Positions 2,369-7,077 of a stretch of DNA of 37,801 nucleotides are shown here, piece by piece. The position numbers and the translations under genes were made by a program. This stretch comes from Dehalococcoidia bacterium (GTDB lineage: Bacteria; Chloroflexota; Dehalococcoidia; GIF9; UBA5629): positions 1-37,801 of the forward strand of contig JAQUQM010000008.1 in NCBI GenBank assembly GCA_028716085.1, read 5' to 3'. The notes beneath the pieces are model-generated. The model searched no databases. It was not told the DNA's origin and worked only from the letters and a program-made list of their open reading frames with translations. Position 1 is the first letter of the stretch. Every line of letters starts with the position of its first letter.

Positions 2369-3514
2369 TTAGCAGGAGTTCTTGTAAATACTGACGATGG
2401 CCGGGACGTCCAGCGGGGTGGGGTGGAAGGCCACCCACGGCGCGGTCTTACAGGCGTTGGCAGCCAGCTTTTCGAAGTCGGATTCCCTGATGCCCAGGTC
2501 CTTCAGCGTAAACAGCATGCCGACCTTTTTAAGCCATTTCTCCGTGGCGGCTATGCCGTCCGTCTCGCCGAAGACCTTCTCGCCGAGCTGCTTGAACTTC
2601 GCCTCCCTTACCGGCAGCGTGTACTTCATCCATGCAAGCAGCAGCGCGGCCAGTCCGTCGCCGTGCGCAATATCATATTCGCCGCTGAGCGCGTGCTCAA
2701 GCCCGTGCATGGACATCAAGCCCGTGCCGCCGCCCAGGTTGGCGAACTGGGAGCAGGCGATGGTGCTGGCCCAGGTCATGCGCGAGCGGTACTCGATGTC
2801 GTCGAGCTTGTTGAGCAACAGGGGCAGGGTATCCACCACGGTTTTCATGCAGCTTTCCCTCAGGGAATCGTTGATCAGCGTGCTTTCATGGGCCGTGATA
2901 TAGGCTTCCACGAGGTGGCAGAAGATGTCCACACCGCCCTGCGCCGTGGTCCTGGCAGGCAGGGAAAGGGTGAGTGCGGGATCGATGATGGACAGGGTGG
3001 GATGGGTCTCGGGTTTCATAACGGGCACCTTCTCGTGCGTTTCCCATTTGGTGATCACAGCGCCGTTGTTGGCCTCCGAGCCACTGGCAGCCACGGTGGG
3101 CACCAGCACGATGGGCGGGACCCTGCCTTTGGACGTAACCTTGTTCACATAGTGGTCCCAGATGGACTCGGTGCTGCTGCTGGCAAGGGCGATGCACTTG
3201 GAAGCGTCCATGGTGCTGCCGCCGCCCATGCCGATGACCACCTGCACGCCATTCTCGCGGGCTATTTTGGCGCCTTCATCGACTGTGGATGAACGGGGGT
3301 TGGGCTCGACTTTTTCAAAGGTGATGGCTTTAACGCCCTTCTCTTCAAGGTCTTTAAGGACTTTGTCCAGCACGCCCGTACGGCGCATGCTGCCGCCTTT
3401 GCCTGTGGCTAACAGCGCCACCTTGCCCAGCTTCGCGACCTCCTTGCCGAGCTGCGCCAGGCTGCCGGCGCCGATGATGAACCTGGTGGGTATATAGAAC
3501 CTTGAAATACTCAT
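2369..3514 (-). CDS. Iron-containing alcohol dehydrogenase (butanol dehydrogenase/YqhD-like)
   Basis: This is a group III, metal-dependent NAD(P)H alcohol/aldehyde oxidoreductase of 381 residues, a normal length. The N-terminal half has the dinucleotide-binding signature GMGGGSTMDASK. The C-terminal half has the iron ligands in VDIFCHLVEAY (Asp and His) and in HGLEHALSGEYDIAHGDGLA (two His), the latter typical of the BdhA/YqhD branch. The start is supported by GGAGG about 8 bases upstream. The physiological substrate is unknown; interconversion of small aldehydes and alcohols is the family role. It stands alone between recN (convergent) and repeat cluster 2. Two 8-bp palindromes upstream may be regulatory. 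Confidence 0.93.
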   Translation of the reverse strand: MSISRFYIPTRFIIGAGSLAQLGKEVAKLGKVALLATGKGGSMRRTGVLDKVLKDLEEKGVKAITFEKVEPNPRSSTVDEGAKIARENGVQVVIGMGGGSTMDASKCIALASSSTESIWDHYVNKVTSKGRVPPIVLVPTVAASGSEANNGAVITKWETHEKVPVMKPETHPTLSIIDPALTLSLPARTTAQGGVDIFCHLVEAYITAHESTLINDSLRESCMKTVVDTLPLLLNKLDDIEYRSRMTWASTIACSQFANLGGGTGLMSMHGLEHALSGEYDIAHGDGLAALLLAWMKYTLPVREAKFKQLGEKVFGETDGIAATEKWLKKVGMLFTLKDLGIRESDFEKLAANACKTAPWVAFHPTPLDVPAIVSIYKNSC

Positions 3515-3620: not shown

Positions 3621-4096
3621 GTCATTGCGAGCCCCGATCTATCGGGACGCGGCAATCTCTGCGTAAACTGTCATTGCGAGGCACAACGTGCCGCGGCAAT
3701 CTCCTGGCCTGCGCTAATACCGTGCAGCAGATTGCTTCGCTGCCTGCCACGCCTTCGGCTCGCAGCTTCGGCTCACCGCAATGACGTGGGGGCTCAATTG
3801 TCATTCCGGGGAACCGCAGGCGACGTGGCAATCTCCTGGCCTGCGCTAATATCATGCAGCAGATTGCTTCGCTGCCTGCCACGCCTTCGGCTCGCAGCTT
3901 CGGCTCACCGCAATGACGTGGGGGCTCAATTGTCCTTCCGGGGAACCGCAGGCGACGTGGCAATCTCTGCGTAAACTGTCATTGCGAGGAGCCCGCAGGC
4001 GACGTGGCAATCTCCTGGCCTGCGCTAATATCATGCAGCAGATTGCTTCGCTACCTGCCACGCCTTCGGCTCGCAGCTTCGGCTCACCGCAATGAC
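3621..4096. repeat. Intergenic palindromic repeat array, cluster 2
   Basis: There are three near-identical units of about 116-119 bp at 3670-3785, 3800-3917 and 3978-4096, plus partial units at 3621-3669 and 3932-3977. Full units start with GTCATTGCGAG or GTCATTCCGGG and end with CACCGCAATGAC. They share CAATCTCCTGGCCTGCGCTA, CAGCAGATTGCTTCGCT and GCCACGCCTTCGGCTCGCAG. The junction CAATCTCTGCGTAAACT occurs twice, which suggests segmental duplication inside the array. The outer ends match cluster 1 but the cores differ. Open frames here are repeat artefacts. Confidence 0.88.
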
Positions 4097-4099
4097 GTG

Positions 4100-4905: not shown

Positions 4906-5877
4906 TTATTTCTTGCCGTGGCTTAACTGGAACGCCATGCGCTCCTCCTCGGTAAGCAGGCAGCCGGCGATACAGGCCTTCTTGCAGCTGCCGTCGCAGG
5001 GCTCGATGTGCACAGTGATGTCGGCGCCCTCCAGCTTTTCCTTGATCTCAGCTTCCATTTTCTCGGCTATGGCGTGCGAATCGGTAACCGTCATGGACGG
5101 GTCGACTACCACATGAAGGTCGATGAACTTGGAGGCTCCCGATTGCCTGAGGCGGACGCGGTGGATGGAGCGTACTTTGGGATACCAGCTCTGAAAATAG
5201 CCGGACAGCCAGGCCACCTCGTGCAAGGGAGGCCGGGTATCGATAAGGTCCTTGATGGCATCTATGGTGAGGTGCAGCGCGGCGCGAAAGATGAGCAGGG
5301 CAACGATGATGGCCGCCACAGGGTCGAGCCAGTAGAGGTTGCTGCCCGGCCAGACGATATTGCCCGCCCAGATCAGGGCCAGCCCGGCTACTACTCCCGC
5401 TGACGTATAGACGTCGGTGCGCAGGTGCCAGGCATCGGCGATGAGGGCGGGTGACCTGGTCTTTTTGCCCACCGTAAAGAGAAGCTGCGAGATGGTGATG
5501 TTGGCGATCACAGAAAAGCCCATCACGATAATGCCGGGACCTACAGTTTCCAGAGTATGGGGATGGATCAGCTTGTTTACGGCTTCGGCCACTATCCAGA
5601 TCGCAGCTATAAAGATAAGCAGGGCTTCGGCCAGCGCCGAGATATCCTCCACCTTGCCATGCCCGAAGGGGTGTTCGGCATCGGCCTTTTTACCCGAGAT
5701 CCTCACGGCGAAGAGCGCGATGAAGGATGCAATGAGGTCCATGGAGGAGTGCGCCGCCTCGGAAAGCACGGATATGGAGCCTATGGCCACGCCGGTGATC
5801 AGCTTGAGGACCACCAGCACGCTATTGGAAACGACCGATAGCAGGGCTACCAGTACCTTCTGTTTCTGTTTATCCAT
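4906..5877 (-). CDS. Cation diffusion facilitator (CDF) metal exporter
   Basis: This proton-coupled divalent-metal exporter of the inner membrane has 323 residues and about six transmembrane helices. The transport site motifs are H43-x3-D47 in TM2 and H151-x3-D155 in TM5, the HD/HD pattern of zinc-type CDFs. HPFGHGK (residues 69-75) follows TM2. The C-terminal cytoplasmic domain has the usual ferredoxin-like fold signature. It ends in an added tail with four evenly spaced cysteines, C294, C298, C302 and C306. I prefer ATG 5877. The in-frame GTG at 5904 falls inside the leader terminator loop. No strong ribosome site is visible; the nearest G-run is about 14 bases upstream. The leader matches a NiCo riboswitch, pointing to Co2+/Ni2+ export. 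Confidence 0.92.
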   Translation of the reverse strand: MDKQKQKVLVALLSVVSNSVLVVLKLITGVAIGSISVLSEAAHSSMDLIASFIALFAVRISGKKADAEHPFGHGKVEDISALAEALLIFIAAIWIVAEAVNKLIHPHTLETVGPGIIVMGFSVIANITISQLLFTVGKKTRSPALIADAWHLRTDVYTSAGVVAGLALIWAGNIVWPGSNLYWLDPVAAIIVALLIFRAALHLTIDAIKDLIDTRPPLHEVAWLSGYFQSWYPKVRSIHRVRLRQSGASKFIDLHVVVDPSMTVTDSHAIAEKMEAEIKEKLEGADITVHIEPCDGSCKKACIAGCLLTEEERMAFQLSHGKK

Positions 5878-5886
5878 TTTTAATAC

Positions 5887-5918
5887 AAAAACCCCGCAGG
5901 ACACCCAGTCCCACGGAG
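5887..5918 (-). terminator. Riboswitch expression-platform terminator
   Basis: Read on the minus strand, CUCCGUGGGAC (5918-5908) pairs along all 11 positions, with wobbles, to GUCCUGCGGGG (5902-5892). The loop is five bases (UGGGU) and UUUUU follows (5891-5887). The 5' arm takes in the 3' strand of aptamer helix P4 and the conserved GGGAC junction. The stem also covers most of the 3' strand of P1. Terminator and aptamer are therefore mutually exclusive, as expected for an ON switch. Confidence 0.8.
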
Positions 5919-5982
5919 CTTTACCGTTGCAATTCGCCCGACTGCACCCCGTTTAAACACGGGGCCGCCTGATCCAAGTTGT
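5901..5982 (-). promoter_or_regulatory. NiCo (cobalt/nickel) riboswitch aptamer
   Basis: The minus-strand RNA reads, in order: P1 5' strand ACAACUUGG (5982-5974); AUCAGGC; P2 CCCCGU/ACGGGG (5964-5959 and 5952-5947); GCAGUCGGGC; a short P3; GCAAC; P4 ACGG/CCGU; GUGGGA; P1 3' strand CUGGGUGU (5908-5901). These elements match, in sequence and order, the four-way-junction NiCo class I recall from the Clostridium scindens structure (AGCAGGC, GCAGCCGGGC, GGCAAC, GUGGGACAG). The position directly ahead of a CDF gene is the classic context. P1 is wobble-rich and P3 is shorter than usual. Confidence 0.82.
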
Positions 5983-5986
5983 TTTA

Positions 5987-6015
5987 ATTATAAATAGTGC
6001 ACGTATTTGCGTCAA
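5987..6015 (-). promoter_or_regulatory. Promoter of the riboswitch-CDF transcript
   Basis: On the minus strand TTGACG (6015-6010) and TATAAT (5992-5987) are separated by exactly 17 bp. Initiation about 7 bases downstream would begin the RNA at about 5980, right at the 5' edge of aptamer helix P1. Just upstream, 6026-6046 holds an inverted repeat (GGGTGGGCT/AGCCACCC) of unknown role. Confidence 0.75.
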
Positions 6016-6065
6016 TTTGAAAACAGGGTGGGCTATGCAGCCACCCGGGAGGTATGACGGGGATA

Positions 6066-6127: not shown

Positions 6128-6796
6128 ATGACGATCAATGCGGAGAACCTGGGAAAGCTGAAGTATTTCGCCGGCCTGGAGCCCGGCCAGCTATCCAATA
6201 TGACCCTGCTTTTTACAGAGAAGGCATTCGTCAAGGGCCAGACCATAATTGCCGAGGATGATGTCAACGAGCAGGTGCATTTCGTGAGCTCGGGCGTGGT
6301 CAAGATTTTCAAAACCTCTTCCGAGGGCAAGGAGCAGATCATCAAGCTGGTCAGGCCAGGCGAATCGTTTAACGACATTCCCGTTTTCAATCAGGGACCG
6401 TGTCCCTACAGCGCCCAGGCGCTGGGAAACGCGGTAATCTACCGCATCGACAGGAAGGACCTGCTGCCGATGATGAAAAGCAACTGGACGGTAACGGCCA
6501 ATGCGCTGGCGGCGGTGGCAGAGCAATCGCGGCTGCTGCTGCAGCTTGTGGAAGACCTTTCCTTCAAGAACGTTACGGGAAGGGTGGCCAAAATCCTGCT
6601 GCAGCACTCTGTGCCGGGACCGGAGGGTGCGCCCAGGCTGACGCAGTATGAGATGGCGGCCATGGCAGGCACGGCGAGGGAAGTGGTGGGGCGATCGCTC
6701 AAGGCGCTGGAAGACGGCGGGGCCATTCGGCTGGAAGGACACCGCATGGTAATAGTGGATAAAGAATACCTGAAACAACTGGCCGGATTGAACTAA
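6128..6796 (+). CDS. Crp/Fnr-family transcriptional regulator
   Basis: The 222-residue product has the two-domain Crp/Fnr build. The cyclic-nucleotide-binding-like beta roll spans about residues 10-125 (FVKGQTIIAEDDVNEQVHFV, GVVKIFKTSSEGKEQIIKLV). A long dimerisation helix follows at about 120-145. The C-terminal winged helix has the recognition segment EMAAMAGTAREVVGRSLKAL near residues 178-197. Only one cysteine is visible, so there is no FNR-type Fe-S cluster, and the effector cannot be assigned. The ribosome site is weak and the leader short. A ferredoxin gene follows 74 bp downstream. The palindrome over its own start suggests autoregulation. It is divergent from the riboswitch-controlled exporter. 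Confidence 0.9.
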   Translation: MTINAENLGKLKYFAGLEPGQLSNMTLLFTEKAFVKGQTIIAEDDVNEQVHFVSSGVVKIFKTSSEGKEQIIKLVRPGESFNDIPVFNQGPCPYSAQALGNAVIYRIDRKDLLPMMKSNWTVTANALAAVAEQSRLLLQLVEDLSFKNVTGRVAKILLQHSVPGPEGAPRLTQYEMAAMAGTAREVVGRSLKALEDGGAIRLEGHRMVIVDKEYLKQLAGLN

Positions 6797-6821
6797 TGTG
6801 ATTTTGGTTACTGTAAATGTG

Positions 6822-6850
6822 TTGCAATAATTGTAAATTAGTGGTAAATA
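6822..6850 (+). promoter_or_regulatory. Possible ferredoxin promoter
   Basis: TTGCAA (6822-6827) and TAAATA (6845-6850) with a 17-bp spacer lie between the regulator and the ferredoxin. Both hexamers are only partial matches. Read-through from the regulator gene is also possible. Confidence 0.3.
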
Positions 6851-6870
6851 ATATTGCGGAGGCGCAGTAA

Positions 6871-7077
6871 TTGACCATTAAGCCTGTATTCGACGAGACA
6901 AAATGCGACGGCTGTGGTTTATGCGTTACAGTTTGCAGGTGCGGAGCTCTGGAAATGCAAAATGATGTGGTAAAGATCATCGAGGTAGCCCACTGCGGCT
7001 GGTGCATGGACTGCGAGCTTGTCTGCGCCACAGGCGCCCTGCAATGTCCCTTTGAAATAGTCACCCTGGATACTTAA
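6871..7077 (+). CDS. 2[4Fe-4S] ferredoxin
   Basis: This 68-residue electron carrier has two complete cluster-binding motifs: C12-x2-C15-x2-C18-x3-C22 and C42-x2-C45-x2-C48-x3-C52. Extra cysteines sit at 24 and 59. The proline that usually follows the fourth cysteine is replaced by Arg and Ala. It starts at TTG, fixed by GGAGG at 6858-6862 eight bases upstream. It is a soluble low-potential redox protein by family. The partner is unknown; it stands alone between a Crp/Fnr regulator and a sigma factor. Synteny with the regulator suggests redox-responsive expression, which is inference only. Confidence 0.9.
   Translation: MTIKPVFDETKCDGCGLCVTVCRCGALEMQNDVVKIIEVAHCGWCMDCELVCATGALQCPFEIVTLDT

Follow-up and report, generated by a model that had tools for sequence, protein, structure and literature searches.

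Metal-sensing junction RNAs are found in front of exporter genes, as in the case of the yybP-ykoY Mn2+ riboswitch, which is often an ON switch. The NiCo (czcD) class (RF02683; Furukawa et al. 2015) was first described as selective for Co and Ni, while later buffered measurements, according to PMC7689651, showed that the RNA responds to Fe(II) and Zn(II) as well, with Fe(II) favored; the dispute appears as well in PMC9481103. The guanines reported to coordinate Co in this class are G46/G47 and G87/G88 (PMC7689651).

The locus described here lies in a 37,801-nt stretch of a Dehalococcoidia genome (contig JAQUQM010000008.1), referred to in its entirety as the window. Judged by sequence comparison, the leader of its CDF exporter gene is a new, sub-threshold member of the known NiCo class, with the standard ON design. 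We hold with high confidence that a NiCo-class riboswitch controls this exporter by transcription termination, the cognate metal being Co2+, Ni2+, Fe2+ or possibly Zn2+.

Organization of the locus

Read along the minus strand from 6015 to 5875, the leader consists of a promoter, the aptamer, a terminator and the ATG of the exporter gene (Table 1). The first-pass annotation had placed the ordered NiCo signature motifs within 5877–6015, and all of them can be read there on the minus strand. It had also proposed a promoter with 17-nt spacing at the aptamer edge; the two hexamers are indeed evident and match 11 of the 12 consensus positions. A TTGAC...TATAAT-like promoter is similarly readable 5' of the aptamer in many relatives. 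A Shine-Dalgarno sequence is absent from 5886–5878 (minus strand), between the terminator and the start codon, and an obvious one is also absent in about half of 20 window genes checked.

Table 1. Features of the leader and of the exporter gene (window coordinates)
Feature	Position	Strand	Basis
Sigma-70-type promoter	5987..6015	-	TTGACG - 17 nt - TATAAT
-35 TTGACG	6015-6010	-	direct reading of strand
-10 TATAAT	5992-5987	-	direct reading of strand
Predicted NiCo-class aptamer, four-way junction	5903..5981	-	RF02683 33.6 bits; clade model R1 68.4 bits
P1 5' strand ACUUGG	5974..5979	-	gapless pairing with 5908-5903
CAGGC	5971-5967	-	direct reading
P2, GGC/GUC base and GCCCC/GGGGU upper helix	5940..5969	-	pair counts on alignment A1
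GUCGGGC	5942-5936	-	direct reading
CGGGC guanines, J2/3 and first P3 base	5937..5939	-	invariant in 13-leader alignment A1
Short P3, 2 bp (GC/GC) and at most one G-U, small loop	5929..5937	-	RF02683 match, A1
GCAACGG	5930-5924	-	direct reading
P4 ACGG/CCGU, 7-nt loop	5913..5927	-	100% of cells paired on A1
GUGGGAC	ends at 5908	-	direct reading
GGGAC, J4/1 GG and top of P1	5908..5912	-	invariant in A1; doubles as terminator 5' arm
Intrinsic terminator stem-loop CUCCGUGGGAC-UGGGU-GUCCUGCGGGG, 11 bp	5892..5918	-	reading, folding, covariation
Terminator arms CUCCGUGGGAC and GUCCUGCGGGG	5918-5908 and 5902-5892	-	direct reading
U5 tract of terminator	5887..5891	-	direct reading
ATG start of CDF gene	5877-5875	-	direct reading
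CDF cation exporter, 323 aa	4906..5877	-	Pfam, TIGR01297; start 9 nt past U tract

The downstream gene had been taken for a CDF exporter, which the protein families confirm: Pfam Cation_efflux (E 3.6e-49, 167.7 bits, cut-off 26.6), Pfam ZT_dimer (E 4.3e-22, 78.3 bits, cut-off 26.7) and TIGR01297 (CDF) all match above their cut-offs. The metal-site tetrad is H43xxxD47 / H151xxxD155 (HD-HD), and the nearest solved structure is that of E. coli FieF (PDB code 2qfi). Among named relatives, the one nearest to the exporter (89% identity) comes from a “Chloroflexi bacterium” MAG, and the leader there carries the same NiCo element.

On the plus strand, 6128–7077 contains a divergently oriented regulator of the Crp/Fnr family and, after it, a small frame resembling a 4Fe-4S ferredoxin; a regulator of this family is likewise divergent from the NiCo-CDF unit in two relatives (L008 and L012). 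In the interval bounded by the gene ends at 3514 and 4100, the window contains a repeat cluster (3646–4099) with three copies of a 107-nt unit that are 92–99% identical and spaced by 132 and 179, which looks like an intergenic repeat element.

Similarity to the NiCo class

Scanning with Rfam at gathering scores gives zero matches anywhere in the window. A permissive scan of the leader with 4227 families, in line with the NiCo assignment of the first-pass annotation, yields a significant match to RF02683 at 5987–5904 on the minus strand that spans the full model (positions 1–96; 33.6 bits, E 5.6e-6), though it stays 3.4 bits under the gathering threshold of 37 bits, which is a curated inclusion rule and not a biological feature. 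The leader was overlooked by Rfam because its score falls just below this cut-off. Over the whole 2.46-Mb genome its RF02683 E-value is 9.9e-6, and it is the sole credible match. The runner-up for NiCo in the genome, at 18.5 bits and E 0.21, is contained in an open reading frame and, like the HCV_5BSL1 match at 6051–6023 (E 6.7), is attributed to chance. No NiCo leader was found for the second CDF gene of the genome.

The clade covariance model R1, built from the leaders of 11 relatives with the genus of the window left out, scores the window leader at 68.4 bits (E 2.7e-23) and also picks up a clostridial NiCo aptamer (27.1 bits). Another match of this model in the genome (21 bits, E 4.9e-4) was rejected; it overlaps an aminotransferase-like coding frame on the opposite strand, is missing GGGAC and has no Rfam match. 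On these scores, the resemblance of the leader to NiCo RNAs is far beyond chance.

Distribution among relatives

Once one false match is set aside, 14 NiCo leaders remain among 30 genomes of the same GTDB family; they come from 13 of these genomes, and all except one precede a CDF exporter (13 of 14). There is no NiCo match at E<=0.1 in 14 control genomes. Matches occur in 23 of 393 genomes searched across the class and in 9 of 400 across the phylum, one being false in each search. The family and class searches together provide 27 distinct leaders, of which 11 reach the gathering score, while 16 miss it with the same core and gene linkage. Downstream of the 27 are 25 CDF genes, one Mg-transport-type P-type ATPase and one condensation-domain protein. 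Three further loci (L016, L037 and L044), in which the core or the gene is missing, were rejected as NiCo leaders. A search with the exporter protein, which is blind to RNA, brought in distant CDF genes from Lachnospiraceae, two of which have NiCo leaders scoring 54–55 bits, above the threshold.

The NiCo-like leader at 1501–1578 of L034 is located 5' of the P-type ATPase, which is nearest to the magnesium-translocating type (TIGR01524, below cut-off, partial sequence). In L005 (1501–1581), a NiCo leader with its terminator precedes the condensation-domain protein and no exporter; the Pfam Condensation match (E 2e-7) is just under the cut-off and the contig ends inside the gene.

Aptamer core and helices

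The core motifs CAGGC / CGGGC / GCA[G/A] / GGGAC are complete in the window, and across the clade they vary hardly or not at all. When mapped through the Rfam consensus, the GG in CGGGC would correspond to G46/G47 and the GG in GGGAC to G87/G88, so that both metal-site pairs appear to be retained. On alignment A1, which comprises 13 leaders, 92.6% of the cells of the four-way-junction pairs are paired, and double changes number 18; when the 3' partners are slid, the pairing falls to 30–45%, and none of 500 shuffles equals the real alignment.

P1 has six pairs, three of them G-U, and covaries across the 27 leaders, with none of 5000 strand shuffles as good in a gapless test. The second pair of P2 varies between G-U, A-U and G-C on A1, and the upper helix shows compensatory changes. 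Variation in P4 among the 27 leaders takes the forms A-U/G-U/G-C and C-G/U-G/U-A. The pairs of P3 and P4 are nearly unvarying within the clade, so that they are supported chiefly by this constancy and by other families; the 2-bp P3 is invariant, with a loop of 4–5 nt in 11 of 13 leaders. The leader had been suggested to be a divergent member of the class. Its P3 is indeed short and its P1 rich in G-U pairs, but the divergence is only mild and the metal-site guanines are intact. With a short P3 common to the clade, and with P1 G-U pairs that differ among its members, the window is no outlier.

Applied to the alignment, RNAalifold returns the terminator together with an alternative pairing in P2/P3, and the four-way junction is absent from its prediction. 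A ligand-free RNA would be expected to behave in this way, but this is no proof. The alternative P2 pairing (columns 14-39 and 15-38) was discarded, as its outer pair is broken in L007 and L010, where the Rfam pairing is kept as A-U.

Terminator and proposed mechanism

The 11-bp terminator stem with its U5 tract, noted at first inspection, can be read directly and is found in 27 of 27 leaders. On A1 it is 98.1% paired, as opposed to 38–52% when slid, and it covaries. The energy of the stem-loop is about -20.6 kcal/mol. An automatic terminator scan flagged none in the leader; direct reading and folding do show one. It had been proposed that the terminator reuses the 3' strands of both P4 and P1. 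This holds for P4, but of the P1 3' strand (5908–5903) only C5908 is in the stem, while 5907–5903 forms the loop. The stem thus shares the P4 3' strand and GGGAC with the aptamer. The two structures exclude each other and both are conserved, as is characteristic of a switch. These comparisons establish the sequence features, the homology, the gene linkage and the covariation of the two folds.

In the metal-free fold of the full leader the terminator dominates (-41.4 kcal/mol). For an RNA ending at 5900, the fold constrained to the aptamer has -23.9 kcal/mol versus -25.3 kcal/mol for the unconstrained minimum, a small gap, and the metal would need to add only little to hold the aptamer. The finished terminator is far more stable than the aptamer, suggesting that the decision is made during transcription.

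RNA polymerase would start near 5981, just 5' of P1. At low metal, the stretch 5918–5908, which runs from the P4 3' strand through the J4/1 guanines into the beginning of the P1 3' strand, would pair with 5902–5892, and the hairpin followed by U5 would end transcription 9 nt 5' of the ATG. At high metal, ions between the J2/3 GG and the J4/1 GG would lock the four-way junction before the 3' arm of the terminator is synthesized, so that no terminator would form and the exporter would be transcribed. The RNA switch very probably turns the exporter gene on at metal excess. The same ON mechanism has been described for the NiCo class (PMC7689651, PMC7917058), and we infer metal binding, the kinetic competition between folds and the direction of control for the window leader.

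Which metal is sensed

With the same RNA and mechanism, the physiological ligand could be Fe(II), or a wide range of divalent metals, instead of Co/Ni, which we consider somewhat less likely than not. The metal site of the exporter is HD-HD in the alignment, versus DD-HD in FieF. In CDF proteins, an HD-HD site speaks for Zn/Co and not for Fe/Mn. Large subunits of the [NiFe]-hydrogenase type are encoded several times in the genome, which also has a cobalamin riboswitch match just at threshold; this indicates that Ni and Co are probably handled. On the side of iron, FieF, the nearest solved homolog of the pump, is named a ferrous-iron efflux pump, and the genome encodes FeoB. None of these points from the metal site and the genome content is decisive. 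The Eba-czcD RNA responded to Fe(II) in buffered anaerobic assays, and a comparison with the availability of metals in the cell favored Fe(II)/Mn(II), as Xu and Cotruvo (2020) are presented in PMC7689651.

Leaders with altered cores

In six genomes of the family a CDF ortholog is present, but the family scan gave no NiCo match for it. Four of their leaders, L050, L052 and L053 from one genus and L054 from another, keep the promoter, the terminator and the CDF gene, while the aptamer core is altered. For the CDF ortholog of L062 no such leader was found, and L063 is truncated. L050, L052 and L053 have lost the G-C pair at the top of P1 (G8-C74) and have an enlarged internal loop there, and two of the three also have changed core guanines. 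The core of L050 contains CUGGC and GUAGGAAC, that of L053 contains GCGGUAAC, and L054, an independent case, has CAAGC and GUAGGAC. The clade model still recognizes all four at 30–50 bits, and their terminator energies are -20.2 (L050), -21.1 (L052), -16.5 (L053) and -12.5 kcal/mol (L054).

The four altered leaders are either decaying or changed in specificity. As two of the four have strong terminators, these leaders could be working switches that respond to another metal, and not dead remnants. That the NiCo scaffold is shifting or losing specificity in this Chloroflexota family is, on balance, improbable; were such a specificity series real, the window leader would be the canonical reference for a natural series. 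Since relatives with altered cores exist, metal binding is not under strong selection everywhere in the clade.

These four relatives, having the same layout, also show that decay may occur in the clade, and the window score is under the gathering threshold; the window leader itself could then be a decayed, non-sensing remnant, with the terminator acting as a constitutive attenuator and an aptamer that no longer binds metal. This is very unlikely: each core position that is invariant across the clade alignment is retained in the window, and the model built without its genus gives it 68.4 bits, versus 30–50 bits for the altered leaders. The same-genus member L011 also holds these positions, with P1 changed yet still paired.

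A plain promoter and terminator with a coincidental likeness to NiCo, which the lack of an Rfam match at gathering score might suggest, has a negligible chance of being correct and is refuted in practice by the comparative data, namely the E-values under RF02683 (5.6e-6) and the clade model (2.7e-23), the association with CDF genes across dozens of genomes and the covariation of the aptamer-only helices P1 and P2.

Comparison with known metal-responsive RNAs

With a NiCo-class switch at this locus, the class reaches into an uncultured lineage of Chloroflexota, in which most copies fall under the standard Rfam cut-off, and a metal-export regulon is predicted for this lineage. Canonical and altered leaders are paired in the same genera, which allows a natural test of the core guanines that determine the metal response, and such pairs bear on the dispute between Co/Ni and Fe(II).

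The Rfam model of the yybP-ykoY riboswitch has no match in the leader at E 10. NiCo-AnGGAG (RF03164), from the same clan as RF02683 (CL00122), is similar in the overall fold family, but gives no match in the genome even at E 1, and the best match of the clan in the window is RF02683. The leader differs from typical RF02683 members in P3, which has 2 bp and a small loop versus 5 bp in the Rfam consensus, in the three G-U pairs of P1, in its score below gathering and in its host, an uncultured Chloroflexota bacterium. It resembles them in the ordered core motifs, the four helices at a four-way junction, the GG/GG metal-site guanines, the probable ON control via an overlapping terminator and the CDF exporter downstream.
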